The notes: generated by a model not told the origin, from the letters alone. A DNA stretch of 5,419 nt from Candidatus Cloacimonadota bacterium (GCA_003647765.1 QMNM01000131.1:1-5419), one strand, 5' to 3'. Positions 1-5,377 are shown, counted from the first letter of the stretch. Translations and numbers: made by a program.

Positions 1-91
1 TAATTTATAATTCTGTATTTCTGATTTTTAATTAAGTCTGCGTCAGTTTGTTAAGTTTGTATGAGTTCGCGATTAAATTCCTTGAATCAAA
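1..91 (+). other. AT-rich leader upstream of the broken lipoprotein copy
   Basis: No reading frame or RNA gene can be supported here. A TATAAT hexamer lies at 6-11, but its -35 region would fall outside the window, so a promoter cannot be claimed. The bases just before the ATG at 92 (CCTTGAATCAAA) align with the leader of the intact paralogue at 3202. That leader has AAGGAGTCAAA, so the Shine-Dalgarno sequence is missing here. Confidence 0.3.
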
Positions 92-256
92 ATGAAAAAA
101 AAATTGTTTGTGCTGGTATTTGTTTTAGCCATTGTAATGATTTGGTGCGAAGATGTCGTAAAGGAGATTACTACAACTATTTCCGGGAAAGTAACCAATG
201 AATGGGAACCTGTTTCGTGTGCGTATGTTATACTACTTGATGCAGGGGATTCAGTC
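92..256 (+). pseudogene. 5' fragment of a lipoprotein gene, diverged copy of 3202-3636
   Basis: The first 55 codons match the first 55 codons of the intact lipoprotein at 3202-3366, with about 37 of 55 residues identical by eye and no gaps. The block TTTISGKVTNE (residues 27-37) is the same in both. Homology stops at about 256 and the frame continues into permease-like sequence. Three signs point to a dead copy. The ribosome-binding site is lost (CTTGAA where the paralogue has AAGGAG). The lipobox position before the cysteine is Trp (MIWC) where the paralogue has Ser (IISC). About 90 C-terminal residues, including the Asp/Asn-rich loop, are gone. The copy presumably arose by duplication, followed by a deletion that joined it to the transporter gene. 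The 109-residue frame at 92-421 is open but is unlikely to give a lipoprotein. Confidence 0.8.
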
Positions 257-670
257 CAGACATACAGTCTTATTTTTGCTATTGGATTAGTGTTTATTTT
301 GCTGACAATTCAAGTCATTCATCTGGGGCTTGATTTCCATTTTGAGATTGGCAAGAGGAATAGTGTAGAGAATGCTCTTGATACAACTTTGCAGACAACA
401 GGTGAAAGGCATCATAATTAATGCTTTTTCTGTAATGGTAGGTTTTCTGACTCTTTTATTAGGAAGTATTGTGCCGATGCAAAGATTCGGCTGGCTAATT
501 GCTCTTACAATGGTAATTAGTGCTACTGCTTGCATAACATTTTGCCATCATTACTTCTGATTACACATGCTTCTTTCATCGGAGATTTAGAGCATATTGC
601 ATTAAAAAATGTAAATGGGATTAAATCTGGAATTAAGAAGCGATTGAAAAACTTTAAAGATAAAAAATGA
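257..670 (+). pseudogene. 3' remnant of an MMPL/RND-family permease gene, frameshifted
   Basis: The conceptual protein resembles the C-terminal end of MMPL/RND-type exporters (the COG1033-like predicted exporters), which move lipids or hydrophobic compounds through the inner membrane. The frame of 92 reads a membrane segment (IFAIGLVFILLTIQ, about 266-307). It then reads VENALDTTLQTTG, the conserved segment that precedes the penultimate transmembrane helices. One extra base near 404 moves the reading to another frame (KGIIINAFSVMVGFL, then SIVPMQRFGWLIALTMV). One missing T in the T-run at 540-543 returns it to the first frame (LPSLLLITHASF) through to the TGA at 668-670. The two shifts cancel. 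Between about 307 and 316, roughly 50 residues expected between the membrane segment and the GxDY-IHF-type region seem to be absent, which suggests an internal deletion. The N-terminal bulk of an ~800-residue protein is missing. The stop overlaps the Shine-Dalgarno sequence of the patatin gene, consistent with a former operon. Confidence 0.8.
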
Positions 671-680
671 AGGAATAATT

Positions 681-1619
681 ATGGAACGAAAATTAAATTT
701 AATGAAGCACCTTAAAAAGAAAAAAGTGGGTTTGGTTCTTGGCAGCGGTTCTGCAAAAGGATTGGCTCATATTGGCGTGATAAAACTTTTAGAAGAAATG
801 GATATAAAAATAGATGTTATTGCAGGAACAAGTATCGGTGCTTTGATTGGTGGGATTTATACTACGGGAATAAGCATAGAGGAAATTGAAGATATTGCTC
901 TTAAAATTGATTTAGCCACATCAGTAAAATTCTTTTTTCCAACTATTCCAAAATCAGGTCTTATAAGCGGTTTAAAAGTGAAAGAATTTTTAATATCTTT
1001 AATTGGAGATAAAAAAATTGAAAATCTAAAAATACCTTTTTCCGCAGTAGCAACTGATATTATTACAGGTCATGAAGTTATTTTTAATGAAGGAAACTTA
1101 GTTGATGCAATACGAGCCAGCATTTCTATACCGATTATTTTTAAACCTGTAATTCATAACGATATTATTCTTGTTGATGGAGGTATTGCCAATCCTCTAC
1201 CAATTGATGTTGTTCGCAAAATGGGCGCAGAATTTATTATTGCTGTAAATGTAATGCCATCTTTAAATAAAACAAGTAAAGTTGATAATTATTACGACTC
1301 ACAGAATTCTTCTCATCTTCCAGAAATCAAATCAATTTTACAAAGAAAACTTGAAGAATTAAGTATTGACCATAAATGGTTAAAAAAGTTTTTAACACAT
1401 AAGGAAAAACAAGACATACCTGGATTGAAAAAGATATTTAATCAATCGGTTCATATTGCTGAACAAAAATTAATAGAGTTATCTATAAAATTATACAAAC
1501 CTGATATTTTGATTGAACCGAACATCACTTTTGCTGGTCGTTTTGATTTTTATAAAGCAAAGGAAATAATTGAAAAAGGTTATAAATCTGCTCATGCAAC
1601 TTTCAATAAAAATAAATGA
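681..1619 (+). CDS. Patatin-like phospholipase (RssA/NTE-type), intact
   Basis: This 312-residue protein is predicted to be a serine acyl hydrolase acting on phospholipids or lysophospholipids with a Ser-Asp dyad. The family motifs are all present. They are a glycine-rich oxyanion loop, GSGSAKG (residues 21-27), the nucleophile elbow GTSIG with Ser51, and the DGG motif with Asp166 (VDGGIANPLP). The length fits bacterial RssA-like proteins of about 300 residues. The usual Arg of the oxyanion loop is Lys26, a conservative change. No signal peptide or membrane helix is seen, so it probably acts in the cytoplasm or on the inner face of the membrane. The ATG at 681 is chosen because AAGGA (670-674) lies 6 bases upstream; Met8 at 702 is the alternative. 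It starts 10 bases after the MMPL remnant and ends 17 bases before the LolA-like remnant's start, so it sat inside an envelope-lipid operon whose other members are now broken. Its substrate cannot be read from sequence. Confidence 0.93.
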   Translation: MERKLNLMKHLKKKKVGLVLGSGSAKGLAHIGVIKLLEEMDIKIDVIAGTSIGALIGGIYTTGISIEEIEDIALKIDLATSVKFFFPTIPKSGLISGLKVKEFLISLIGDKKIENLKIPFSAVATDIITGHEVIFNEGNLVDAIRASISIPIIFKPVIHNDIILVDGGIANPLPIDVVRKMGAEFIIAVNVMPSLNKTSKVDNYYDSQNSSHLPEIKSILQRKLEELSIDHKWLKKFLTHKEKQDIPGLKKIFNQSVHIAEQKLIELSIKLYKPDILIEPNITFAGRFDFYKAKEIIEKGYKSAHATFNKNK

Positions 1620-1636
1620 AATATGGAGGAACCAAA

Positions 1637-1875
1637 ATGAAAAACAGGCAATAACCATTACAATACTTCTGCTTTTAATTGGAGCAAGTATCTCGGTTCA
1701 TGCCCAAGCTCTTAAAGCAGAAGATATTGTAAAAAATGCGGATGCAGTCGTAAATGCACCAAAGGATCAAGAGATGTCAATTAAAATGACATTGGTTGAC
1801 AAAAATGGCGATGAAAAGACCAGAGAAATGAAGATGTATCAAAAAGGTGATGAGAAGCGTTTGGTTCGCGTTTAA
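1637..1875 (+). pseudogene. 5' remnant of an outer-membrane lipoprotein-sorting-like (LolA-like, TP_0789-type) gene
   Basis: The native start is probably the ATG at 1637, which follows a good GGAGG at 1625-1629 with a 7-base spacer. From there the frame reads MKNRQ and hits TAA at 1652. One base appears to be missing around 1649-1652, because the +1 frame continues as ITITILLLLIGASISVHAQ. That is a Sec signal peptide with a likely cut after VHA. The mature start follows (ALKAEDIVKNADAVVNAPKD), then MTLVDKNGDEKTREMKMYQKGDEKRLVR. This last stretch is the hallmark N-terminal region of the periplasmic LolA-like family that is often encoded beside MMPL/RND permeases. Intact members run about 250 residues; this one stops after KRLVRV at 1875, so about two thirds is missing. 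An open frame from an ATG at 1570 overlaps the patatin gene, but its start has no family resemblance and is probably not native. In intact form the protein would be a periplasmic lipid-binding partner of the transporter. Confidence 0.78.
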
Positions 1876-2120
1876 TCTCTTACTTAATGATGAAGATGAG
1901 TTGAAAACTTGTTCCAATTGATGGAGCAATTTCTATAACTGATTGGGATGATTGGCAAAATAACTATAGTTTTGTCGCTAATCCAGAAATAATTTATTAT
2001 CCATCTGATAATGTAGAAATAATTACAGGTGCTTACTTTCTTGATGGAAAAGGAAATAATATGTTTAATAATGTGAAAGATAACGATGAAATTTATTTCA
2101 AAGTGAAAGTAAGTTTTTAA
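1872..2120 (+). pseudogene. 3' remnant of an outer-membrane beta-barrel (porin/DUF1302-like) gene
   Basis: A frame with no start of its own runs to the TAA at 2118-2120 and reads as the end of an outer-membrane barrel. It has alternating polar and hydrophobic strands separated by Asp/Asn/Gly turns (ISITDWDDWQNNYSF, NPEIIYYPSDNVEIITGAYF, DNDEIYFKVKVSF). It ends in Phe, the classic C-terminal signal recognised by the BAM assembly complex. Upstream, the same frame continues as LISYLMMKMS and is interrupted by TGA at 1902-1904, plausibly a former TGG (Trp). It abuts the LolA-like fragment at about 1870, as expected if one deletion removed the end of one gene and most of the next. The resemblance is to the C-termini of DUF1302/alginate-export-like barrels. 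Such barrels occur in clusters with LolA-like and MMPL genes. The family name is tentative; the barrel-end character is well supported. Its stop codon overlaps the nadE start. Confidence 0.65.
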
Positions 2121-3184: not shown

Positions 3185-3201
3185 GAAATAAAGGAGTCAA
3201 A

Positions 3202-3636
3202 ATGAAAAAAGGAGTATTTGCTATAGCACTGATTTTAGCAATCGTAATAATTAGTTGTGAAGATACTGTAAAAAAACTCACAACGACCATTTCTGGAAAA
3301 GTAACCAATGAAGGAGCGGCGGTTTCAGGTGCGTATGTTATCCTACTTGAAGCAGGAAATTCCGTAAGCGATGGGCTTTCACTTTCTAATGGTATGATAA
3401 CAAATTCAAATGGAGATTATACGATGGTTGAGGTGAGTGCTGGCGACCATTATGTAGCAGCAATAGATGATGTTAACAATAACATTATCTTTGATATGGA
3501 TACCGATAGAATTGGCTATTATGGCGACCTAGATACACTTGGATTTACAATCCCACGAACACTTCATATCAACAAAGGCGATGATATAGAAGATATTAAC
3601 ATTACAAAACTTTATTACTTACCAAATGGACAATGA
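3202..3636 (+). CDS. Small lipoprotein with a carboxypeptidase-regulatory-like domain
   Basis: This 144-residue exported lipoprotein has an N-terminal signal (MKKGVF..IVIISC) with a lipobox and the lipidated residue at Cys19. Residues ~28-85 look like a transthyretin/carboxypeptidase-regulatory-like beta-sandwich. The evidence is ISGKVTNEGAAVSGAYVILL, then an ITNSNGDYTMVEVSAGDHYV strand-turn pattern. Residues 90-102 (DVNNNIIFDMDTD) form an Asp/Asn-rich loop reminiscent of a calcium-binding turn, followed by IGYYG. Such proteins sit on an envelope membrane facing the periplasm or cell surface; no enzymatic residues are visible. AAGGAG (3191-3196) lies 5 bases before the ATG, which fixes the start. 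A diverged, truncated copy lies at 92-256. The gene is 113 bases after nadE and 74 bases before the radical SAM gene, so cotranscription with the latter is possible but unproven. The specific function is unknown. Confidence 0.85.
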   Translation: MKKGVFAIALILAIVIISCEDTVKKLTTTISGKVTNEGAAVSGAYVILLEAGNSVSDGLSLSNGMITNSNGDYTMVEVSAGDHYVAAIDDVNNNIIFDMDTDRIGYYGDLDTLGFTIPRTLHINKGDDIEDINITKLYYLPNGQ

Positions 3637-3710
3637 TTAAATCTATCTCAAAGTAAAGACGAGTTAATAATGGGAATTTTATGAATTATAAAAAGTGAAA
3701 GGAGAAAAAG
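3637..3710 (+). promoter_or_regulatory. Short gap with the radical SAM ribosome-binding site
   Basis: The gap is AT-rich and shows no terminator or clear promoter. AAAGGAG at 3698-3704 lies 6 bases before the ATG at 3711 and decides that start. With no terminator visible, the lipoprotein and radical SAM genes may share a transcript. Confidence 0.6.
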
Positions 3711-5162
3711 ATGAAAAGTCCAAAAGAACTAACAAAACAAGGAATAATTGAATTACTAATAAAATTAGTTAATAATAACTCTATAAGAAAAGTAGCCATT
3801 CCTATGATTGATAATAAAGTTAGAAAATTGCTGGACAAGGAGAGTGATACTAATTTTCCAGCGGAAAAGTATGCTCATTACTGCTTCTTTCACAATCTTC
3901 TAAAGAATGTAGACAAGCGAATAGATGAGAATTTGATTGCTAAAAATGTTCAAAAAAAACTTGTTAAAAATCTGGTTGAACATATCATATTCAATGGCGC
4001 GGAAACCAGAGTACAAGCTTATGAACAGGAAGGAAGAGAGATACCGACTTTCCTTGTTATTGGGCCTGGTCAGAAGTGTAATCTGAAATGTACAGGTTGC
4101 TATGCGGCTAGCCATAAGGGCGTTTTTGCTAAACTAAGTTGGGATACTGTTGACAGGATAATGACAGAAAAAGAAAAGTTGTGGAATAGCTATTTTACTG
4201 TTGTTACTGGTGGAGAGCCATTTTTGTGGAATGACAATGGCAAGGACTTATTTGACATAATGGAAAAACATAATGACCAGTTCTTCCTTATTTATACGAA
4301 TGGAACTCTAATAAATAAGAAAAATGCGCAAAGGTTAGCTGAGTTAGGTAATGCAACTCCTGCAATTTCTATAGAAGGATTTGAAAAGGAAACTGATGAG
4401 AGAAGAGGTAAGGGTGTGTATAAAAAAATACTGTCTGCATTTGAAAATTTGAGAGAAGCAGGTGTGCTTTTTGGTATTTCTGTAACTGCTACACGAAAGA
4501 ATGCTGAAACAATTGTATCTGATGAGTTTATTGATTTCTATTATGAAAAGCAGAAAGCAATATATGGTTGGTTATTCCAATATATGCCTATTGGAAGAGG
4601 AATTGATTTTGATTATATGATAACCCCTGAACAACGGCTTTATCTATATCAAAGAGGTAAGGAAATCAATGAAAAACAGGGCTATGACTATATGGACTTC
4701 TGGAATAATGGATATATGGCAAGTGGATGTATTGCAAGTGGCAGAAGAGGCGGCTATCTCTATATTCAATGGGATGGAGATGTAACTCCTTGTGCATTTA
4801 TCCCTTATTCTCCTGTAAACATCTGTGAAGTTTATAAAAATGGTGGGAATTTGAATACTGTTTTAGAAGCTCAATATTTTAAGGATATCAGAAAATGGCA
4901 GAAAAGATACGGATATCTGAAAAATAAAGAAGAGGTTGGAAATAGAATAATGCCTTGTATTATCAGAGATCATCATAAAGAATTCTGTGAAATTACAAAG
5001 AAGTATGCTGTTAAGCCAATAGATAAGCCAGCAGAAGAAGCTCTACATAGTGAAGAATACCATCAGCAGATGATTGAATATGACAAAGAACTTGAGAAGT
5101 TGTTAGAGCCAGAATGGGAAAATGATTTTGTCAAAGCTGGCAATAGATTTAAGGAAAAATAA
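3711..5162 (+). CDS. Radical SAM protein with a SPASM-like C-terminal region
   Basis: This 483-residue enzyme is predicted to bind a [4Fe-4S] cluster and S-adenosylmethionine to generate a 5'-deoxyadenosyl radical. The cluster motif is CNLKCTGC, with Cys123, Cys127 and Cys130, preceded by FLVIGPGQK on the first barrel strand. TGGEP (166-170) is the SAM amino-group motif, and ISIEGFEKETDERRGKG starts at residue 219, typical of the SPASM-bearing branch. The C-terminal part carries Cys340 (SGCIASG), Cys361 (VTPCAF), Cys372 (NICEVY), Cys416 (MPCII) and Cys426 (EFCEI). YIQWDGDVTPC resembles the auxiliary-cluster region of peptide- and protein-modifying family members. An N-terminal ~110-residue helical, Lys-rich extension precedes the barrel and resembles no domain I can name. 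No signal peptide is seen, so it is cytoplasmic. No obvious precursor peptide or partner enzyme lies in the window, so the substrate is unknown. Confidence 0.88.
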   Translation: MKSPKELTKQGIIELLIKLVNNNSIRKVAIPMIDNKVRKLLDKESDTNFPAEKYAHYCFFHNLLKNVDKRIDENLIAKNVQKKLVKNLVEHIIFNGAETRVQAYEQEGREIPTFLVIGPGQKCNLKCTGCYAASHKGVFAKLSWDTVDRIMTEKEKLWNSYFTVVTGGEPFLWNDNGKDLFDIMEKHNDQFFLIYTNGTLINKKNAQRLAELGNATPAISIEGFEKETDERRGKGVYKKILSAFENLREAGVLFGISVTATRKNAETIVSDEFIDFYYEKQKAIYGWLFQYMPIGRGIDFDYMITPEQRLYLYQRGKEINEKQGYDYMDFWNNGYMASGCIASGRRGGYLYIQWDGDVTPCAFIPYSPVNICEVYKNGGNLNTVLEAQYFKDIRKWQKRYGYLKNKEEVGNRIMPCIIRDHHKEFCEITKKYAVKPIDKPAEEALHSEEYHQQMIEYDKELEKLLEPEWENDFVKAGNRFKEK

Positions 5163-5176: not shown

Positions 5177-5265
5177 AATAAAAACCATATAGGATTAAAT
5201 TGTTGGCTTTTGCGTAGAATATATGGGTTAATCTTAATTGTTCATAAACTAAAGTCATTTATATC

Positions 5266-5338: not shown

Positions 5339-5377
5339 GAAACTCGACTCGGGTTCTTTGAACTCGAGTCGGGTTTC
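5339..5377. repeat. Strong 18-bp hairpin made of two near-identical units
   Basis: Positions 5339-5356 pair with 5360-5377 over 18 positions: 16 Watson-Crick pairs and two G:T (G:U in RNA), with a TTT loop at 5357-5359. The arms are also near-perfect direct repeats. AACTCGACTCGGGTT (5341-5355) and AACTCGAGTCGGGTT (5361-5375) differ by one base. The hairpin is far richer in GC than its surroundings. It could be an intergenic palindromic repeat (REP/MITE-like), a transcript-end stabiliser, or a protein-binding site. It is followed by ACGGTTAGG rather than a T-run, so a classical terminator is unlikely. Confidence 0.7.

Follow-up and report, generated by a model that had tools for sequence, protein, structure and literature searches.

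A short contig from a Candidatus Cloacimonadota bacterium carries one complete patatin-like phospholipase gene among fragments of envelope-transport genes. What was this locus when it was whole, and what place did a lipase have in it? The window that we analysed is the entire contig C157, 5,419 nt long, of the MAG G000 (1.97 Mb in 360 contigs, 88.8% complete, 1.4% contaminated). It was set against a phylum survey of 124 Candidatus Cloacimonadota genomes; the window patatin served as the query for finding the loci of relatives, and L055 (G013:C298), the closest intact copy of the operon, as the DNA reference for the remnants (G numbers denote genomes, C contigs and L loci).

A decayed operon around an intact patatin gene

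Window positions 84–2120 are a decayed copy of an operon that is kept whole in Candidatus Cloacimonadota relatives. The region holds pieces of five genes, all in one direction, and is followed by nadE, a lipoprotein paralog and a radical SAM/SPASM gene, all intact:

44–88, plus strand: degenerate piece of the genome's dispersed intergenic repeat, just 5′ of the lipoprotein remnant (local alignment score 37, against a maximum of 31 in 300 shuffles)
84–255, plus strand: 5′ remnant of a CarboxypepD_reg-like lipoprotein gene, ATG at 92 (88% DNA identity to L055 522–693)
256–670, plus strand: 3′ remnant of an MMPL/RND permease gene (codons ~793–981 of 981, with 45 codons deleted inside)
681–1619, plus strand: intact patatin-like phospholipase gene, 312 aa (Pfam PF01734, 124 bits, cut-off 27.7)
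1637–1872, plus strand: 5′ remnant of a LolA_like (PF17131) periplasmic carrier gene (~79 of 248 codons)
1856–1888, plus strand: 33-nt piece of the ~125 bp dispersed repeat, where the deletion joined LolA to the barrel (many other G000 contigs have near-exact copies)
1895–2120, plus strand: 3′ remnant of a DUF1302-like outer-membrane barrel gene (last ~71 of 443 codons; 85% DNA identity to L055 6985–7212)
2120–3088, plus strand: intact NAD+ synthase gene nadE (Pfam NAD_synthase, 221 bits; TIGR00552, 203.7 bits, cut-off 63.65)
3202–3636, plus strand: intact lipoprotein paralog (82% DNA identity to the L055 lipoprotein; CarboxypepD_reg, 27.9 bits, below the cut-off)
3711–5162, plus strand: intact radical SAM/SPASM gene (Pfam Radical_SAM, 79.6 bits)

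Several lines of evidence identify the remnants. First, they align at the DNA level, with 74–88% identity, to successive parts of one operon, L055, and the colinearity of all of them excludes chance. Second, tblastn places the MMPL remnant at residues 793–981 of an intact ortholog (E = 1e-24), the LolA remnant at residues 18–77 (E = 2e-26; positions 3–79 with a profile of intact orthologs, E = 3.6e-29) and the barrel remnant at residues 373–443 (E = 4e-31), with a C terminus, ...FKVKVSF, that ends in Phe as in outer-membrane barrels. Both kinds of alignment bear out the four fragments that the first-pass annotation had listed in one direction and in this order. Its reading of the stretch from 92 as permease holds for 256–670 only; 84–255 is the 5′ end of the lipoprotein gene, 74% identical in DNA to the intact paralog (window 3194–3365) and, in translation, with Trp in place of Gly just before the lipobox Cys.

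Third, the losses can be placed within the reference operon. One deletion fuses lipoprotein nt 693 to MMPL nt 3401 (L055 numbering; 2.7 kb lost) at about window 255/256, where a few bases are shared; another removed 135 bp inside MMPL between 11-bp direct repeats (TTTCCATTTTG, window 334–344); and the last fuses LolA nt 5206 to barrel nt 6985 (L055 numbering; 1.8 kb lost), leaving ~22 nt of other sequence at the junction. Five small indels also break the frame: three in MMPL, near 306 (−5), 403 (+1) and 539 (−1), one in LolA, near 1646 (−1), and one in the barrel, near 1903 (+1). The remnants are thus truncated, as first described, but not merely truncated. The indels also mean that the ORFs at 92–421 and, TTG-started, at 1570–1875 are not genes, and both were rejected as frame remnants. 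By contrast, the patatin gene between the MMPL and LolA pieces is as complete as first thought, free of any frame-breaking indel: the 1,035 nt of remnant hold five and the 936 nt of patatin none, a distribution with P of ~0.04 if indels were evenly spread and of ~0.0005 when all intact genes of the contig are added.

Might the contig instead be a chimera, joined at repeats during assembly? A piece of the dispersed repeat does sit at the LolA/barrel join, matches to this repeat are often near contig ends, and the MAG is highly divided (360 contigs). However, neither the missing operon parts nor any MMPL has another copy in the G000 MAG (88.8% complete), and the 135-bp loss at a direct repeat and the five small indels are marks of decay that a misjoin does not make. 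A second genome, G118, shows the same pattern with different joins. On these grounds we judge an assembly artefact very improbable. As a pseudogene cluster the window is unremarkable, and it is the parent system that merits attention.

The repeat is intergenic, ~125 bp long, and occurs singly or in short tandem arrays, often near contig ends, on G000 contigs that include C230, C193, C199, C196, C109, C87, C288, C281, C179 and C24; a search of 2.0 Mb of loci from other genomes gave no match. Two further features of the window were noted in passing. The lipoprotein paralog lies directly 5′ of the SPASM gene (3202–5162) and weakly matches TIGR04134, a radical SAM-associated putative lipoprotein (19.4 bits, cut-off 39.8). 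Near the contig end, two close intergenic copies of ACTCGA(C/G)TCGGGTT (5341–5376) have, by eye, a palindromic look.

The parent operon in relatives

MMPL, patatin, LolA-like and barrel genes stand in exactly the window order in eight Cloacimonadota loci, and a ninth locus starts at patatin, so the adjacency suggested for relatives in the first-pass annotation does exist. In G013:C298 (L055), G003 (L062/L072), G009 (L063), G105 (L069) and G119 (L166), the order is lipoprotein, MMPL (981–984 aa), patatin, LolA-like and barrel, with some small insertions. G013:C49 (L056), G106 (L071, Ca. Cloacimonas sp. SDB) and G083 (L170, with a shorter MMPL) have the four core genes in the same order, and G096 (L070) has patatin, LolA and barrel on a contig that begins at patatin. 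The LolA subfamily of the operon is confined to ten loci above 400 bits among the 124 genomes, the next best match scoring 212, and patatin adjoins nine of the ten; the exception, G089, has permease, LolA and barrel without patatin. Wherever the 3′ flank of the long-form MMPL is available in Cloacimonadota (seven full genes and one cut by a contig start), the gene directly 3′ is patatin.

The association extends to other phyla. Patatin is directly 3′ of MMPL in one Ignavibacteria contig (L133: barrel, unknown gene, MMPL, patatin), and one small gene separates the two in a Neomarinimicrobiota contig (L074). Another locus outside the phylum, L075, reads MMPL-patatin-GT2-LolA-barrel, and the Bacteroidales loci L083 and L084 read MMPL-acyltransferase-LolA-patatin-LysE-GT2-barrel. 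The same families in different gene orders argue for selection on the set. Separately, at positions 1–3356 of L061 (G001:C140), a pair of FtsX/MacB-type permease genes takes the place of LolA and barrel after patatin, an arrangement that may be an ABC-type substitute for the MMPL set.

The intact proteins can be assigned to families with differing confidence. The L055 MMPL matches Pfam MMPL at 187 bits (cut-off 20.5) over two stretches, and the intact MMPL matches the HAE3 family TIGR00921 at 312.9 bits, below the NCBIfam cut-off of 351.9. The LolA-like parent matches PF17131 at 194.8 bits (cut-off 30), has a hydrophobic N terminus ending in SIYAQ, and matches DUF1329 only more weakly. The barrel gives a partial match to DUF1302 (PF06980; 26.4 bits in L055 and 25.3 bits in L056, cut-off 23.2); AlphaFold2 predicts ~23 strands and a signal helix, with a mean pLDDT of 48.4 that is too poor for a fold search.

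The proposal of an intact four-part module therefore needs two amendments. The set is conserved in relatives, but as a fixed unit it is too rigid: G118 and, probably, G027 keep patatin without the three transport genes, and G089 keeps those three without patatin. The operon also extends beyond the four families, taking in the lipoprotein (and a START-domain gene), and lies inside a larger lipid-synthesis island.

The patatin and the transport genes

By alignment, the window patatin has its catalytic Ser51 (GTSIG) and Asp166 (DGG), while in the oxyanion loop Ser stands at position 24, where Gly is nearly invariant. Its pairwise dN/dS against nine orthologs, 0.18–0.24, is as among intact orthologs, a value that is averaged over long branches and compatible with recent relaxation. 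Unlike the LolA and barrel proteins, it has no hydrophobic signal peptide and should thus act in the cytoplasm; among relatives, the L075 patatin is an exception, with a hydrophobic N terminus.

G118 provides the clearest case of separability. Its island is colinear in DNA with that of its congener G119 (80–88% identity), apart from deletions that run from SPASM to the lipoprotein, from MMPL to its last codons, and through LolA and most of the barrel; patatin lies intact between the last two. G118 has thus lost the same three transport genes as the window and kept patatin, which makes patatin separable from them. G027 has lipoprotein, a small gene and patatin at a contig edge, and patatin, DUF212, phasin and UbiB on another contig; no MMPL or LolA of the operon type was found in that genome, which probably keeps patatin without the transport trio. 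G092 has MMPL-patatin with no LolA or barrel adjoining. The patatin tree joins the window copy to two Neomarinimicrobiota (Fidelibacterota) copies (99/94) and sets it apart from those of G118 and G027, so the loss in the window was a separate event. The comparison suggests that the three transport genes tend to be lost together while patatin stays. Its retention would place patatin on the lipid-metabolism side of the island, not among the structural parts of a pump.

A different reading is that patatin is an independent RssA-like lipase that came to lie in the operon by chance, its link to the transport genes being positional only. Its best named family is indeed RssA (NF007623; 178.5 bits, below the equivalog cut-off of 272), and, beyond G118 and probably G027, it occurs next to UbiB (G012, G013:C91) or by itself (G103). 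Yet the subfamily occurs in only 18 of the 124 genomes, and so is not housekeeping, and its company with MMPL, LolA and barrel in nine Cloacimonadota loci, reordered in L083, L084 and L075, argues for selection on the association. We regard a chance neighbour as unlikely and prefer a patatin that is functionally tied to the island.

Two side observations concern related genes. The window patatin and SPASM genes are ~74–77% identical in DNA to Neomarinimicrobiota L073 and L074, as close as to same-order genomes, which suggests either cross-phylum island transfer or misbinned contigs. In a family that we call f2, within the same order, a serine palmitoyltransferase (SPT) gene adjoins a patatin-domain gene on the opposite strand, mostly ~770–800 aa long and 311 aa in G011 (G003:C94 68046–70105, G013:C289 (L253 4701–8861), G002:C56, G004:C25, G005:C25, G006:C178, G007:C58, G009:C130, G011:C93 and G017:C119); in G000, SPT and that patatin-domain gene are on separate contigs, C16 and C21.

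Relation to known export systems

The first-pass annotation took RND permease, LolA-like protein and barrel to be a known export set, and the trio does resemble AmeABD. In the AmeABCD monoterpene efflux system of Castellaniella defragrans (PMC6394551), an HAE3-family RND permease, a DUF1302 outer-membrane protein and a LolA-superfamily periplasmic protein are encoded together, as here. Three of the four Ame proteins are thus recognised here by family (RND, DUF1302 barrel and LolA-superfamily), the fourth in Ame being a second periplasmic protein, AmeC. The systems differ in that AmeB belongs to DUF1329 and the carrier here to LolA_like PF17131, in that the Ame cargo is monoterpenes whereas the island here encodes lipid-type enzymes, and in that the Ame cassette as described has no patatin (PMC6394551), which here is embedded.

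The ApeL/ApeM/ApeN proteins of the E. coli aryl polyene cluster (PMC8253772) offer a second comparison: there too, genes for an RND permease and a LolA-like carrier lie among those for lipid biosynthesis, which include KAS, acyltransferase and glycosyltransferase genes. That set has the LolB-like ApeN instead of a barrel and a thioesterase but no patatin (PMC8253772), and aryl polyene enzymes were not seen here. HpnN (hopanoid) and BstA (sterol) are MMPL/RND lipid-export permeases that the intact MMPL matches at 165 and 76.9 bits, far below the family cut-offs of 751.85 and 1400; HpnN works without encoded periplasmic or outer-membrane partners (PMC6394551). RssA is similar in length to the window patatin and differs in genomic context. 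The open-access literature that we searched, which omits most subscription papers, holds no description of patatin as a regular member of such a cassette, or of the surrounding island. Cassettes of RND, LolA-superfamily and DUF1302 proteins are known; the embedded patatin is the new feature.

The lipid island and its possible cargo

With some variation, the island runs TetR, KAS III, GNAT N-acyltransferase, SPASM radical SAM, GtrA, START-domain, lipoprotein, MMPL, patatin, LolA, barrel, small membrane protein, PlsC-like acyltransferase, LPG_synthase_C, phasin and UbiB. Homologs of the window SPASM protein flank patatin or MMPL in related islands, scoring 877 bits in L073 and 838 bits in L074, both beside patatin. 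This gene content suggests synthesis, remodelling and export of an amphiphilic lipid.

Which lipid might it be? The island GNAT is a full-length homolog of E. coli YghO (phmmer E = 5.5e-71 in L246 to 5.1e-14 for a piece in L056 cut by the contig end), present in most islands (13 ORFs, ~10 distinct genes), and YghO/aca has been assigned to dihydroceramide (ceramide) synthesis (PMC9386255). In L074, patatin, SPASM, GtrA, GNAT and SPT genes are consecutive, bringing GNAT and SPT side by side near patatin. SPT occurs in 107 of the 124 genomes of the phylum, and a survey of 33 Black Sea Cloacimonadota MAGs found no ceramide synthase (bCerS) up to ten ORFs away from SPT (PMC11334938); the enzyme encoded by the island GNAT gene may be one. 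The cargo would then be a ceramide-like sphingolipid, and Cloacimonadota would have in the island their missing locus for ceramide N-acylation and export. However, SPT is absent from the Cloacimonadota islands read, no homolog of the E. coli BL21 ceramide reductase was found in the island loci scanned (E ≤ 1e-10), and KAS III and phasin point to other lipids too. Because a more distant GNAT paralog, which may be the general ceramide synthase, lies outside the island in nearly every genome, we offer a ceramide-like cargo as a tentative candidate that is rather improbable in this specific form; an amphiphilic lipid made by the island is the broader reading that we carry forward.

Export in the organism

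The decay of the window copy may or may not deprive the organism of export. G000 contig C7 breaks off inside GtrA, after TetR, a YghO-type GNAT and SPASM. Its last 2.8 kb (12045–14805; L284 7046–9806) are 89% identical in DNA to G003:C24, and there the island runs on into an intact operon. For SPT, identity between G000 and G003 is as low as 72%, a disparity which suggests that the island head was transferred horizontally or has recombined. The eroded operon could therefore be redundant, the function being kept by another island that arrived more recently and has its export part past the end of C7; two intact operons coexist with a third patatin in G013, and at 88.8% completeness an intact second copy may be missing from the MAG. 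Against this reading, searches of the rest of the MAG turned up no START or MMPL, nor any further operon-type LolA or barrel, and an island head need not imply an export part: in G012, SPASM, GtrA and START are followed by UbiB and patatin, with no MMPL. We see redundancy as a real possibility while leaning against it; with a second intact operon beyond the end of C7, the organism would keep export despite the erosion in the window. G000 does keep a general LolA_like gene, on C100. On C7, a truncated copy of the small membrane protein gene precedes GtrA.

Discussion

The window holds a decayed copy of a conserved operon. Taken together, we consider it probable that the intact version exports a lipid, and that its cytoplasmic patatin edits that lipid without belonging to the pump structure. 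If the intact set works as AmeABD and ApeLM do, an amphiphilic lipid produced by the island would be drawn from the inner membrane by the HAE3-type permease, ferried through the periplasm by the LolA-like protein and taken up by the barrel at the outer membrane. Judging by its family, patatin would act before export, in the cytoplasm, as an acyl hydrolase that trims, remodels or recycles acyl chains of the lipid or its precursor. Both the cargo and patatin's role in lipid handling we infer from sequence. A bolder version is conceivable, in which several uncultured phyla share a horizontally moving lipid system: a cytoplasmic patatin would edit an N-acylated, ceramide-like lipid, the RND permease, LolA-like protein and DUF1302 barrel would export it, and the trio could be discarded while the editing enzyme is kept. 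Stated in full, this version is speculative, and we think it doubtful.

How unusual lipids reach the Gram-negative outer membrane is largely an open question. A conserved operon in which a lipase gene separates an RND permease gene from that of its LolA-like carrier, within an island that has an enzyme of a ceramide-synthase family, offers a concrete gene set to examine for making, editing and exporting one lipid, and the recurrent joint loss of the three transport genes, with patatin kept, indicates which of its parts depend on one another.
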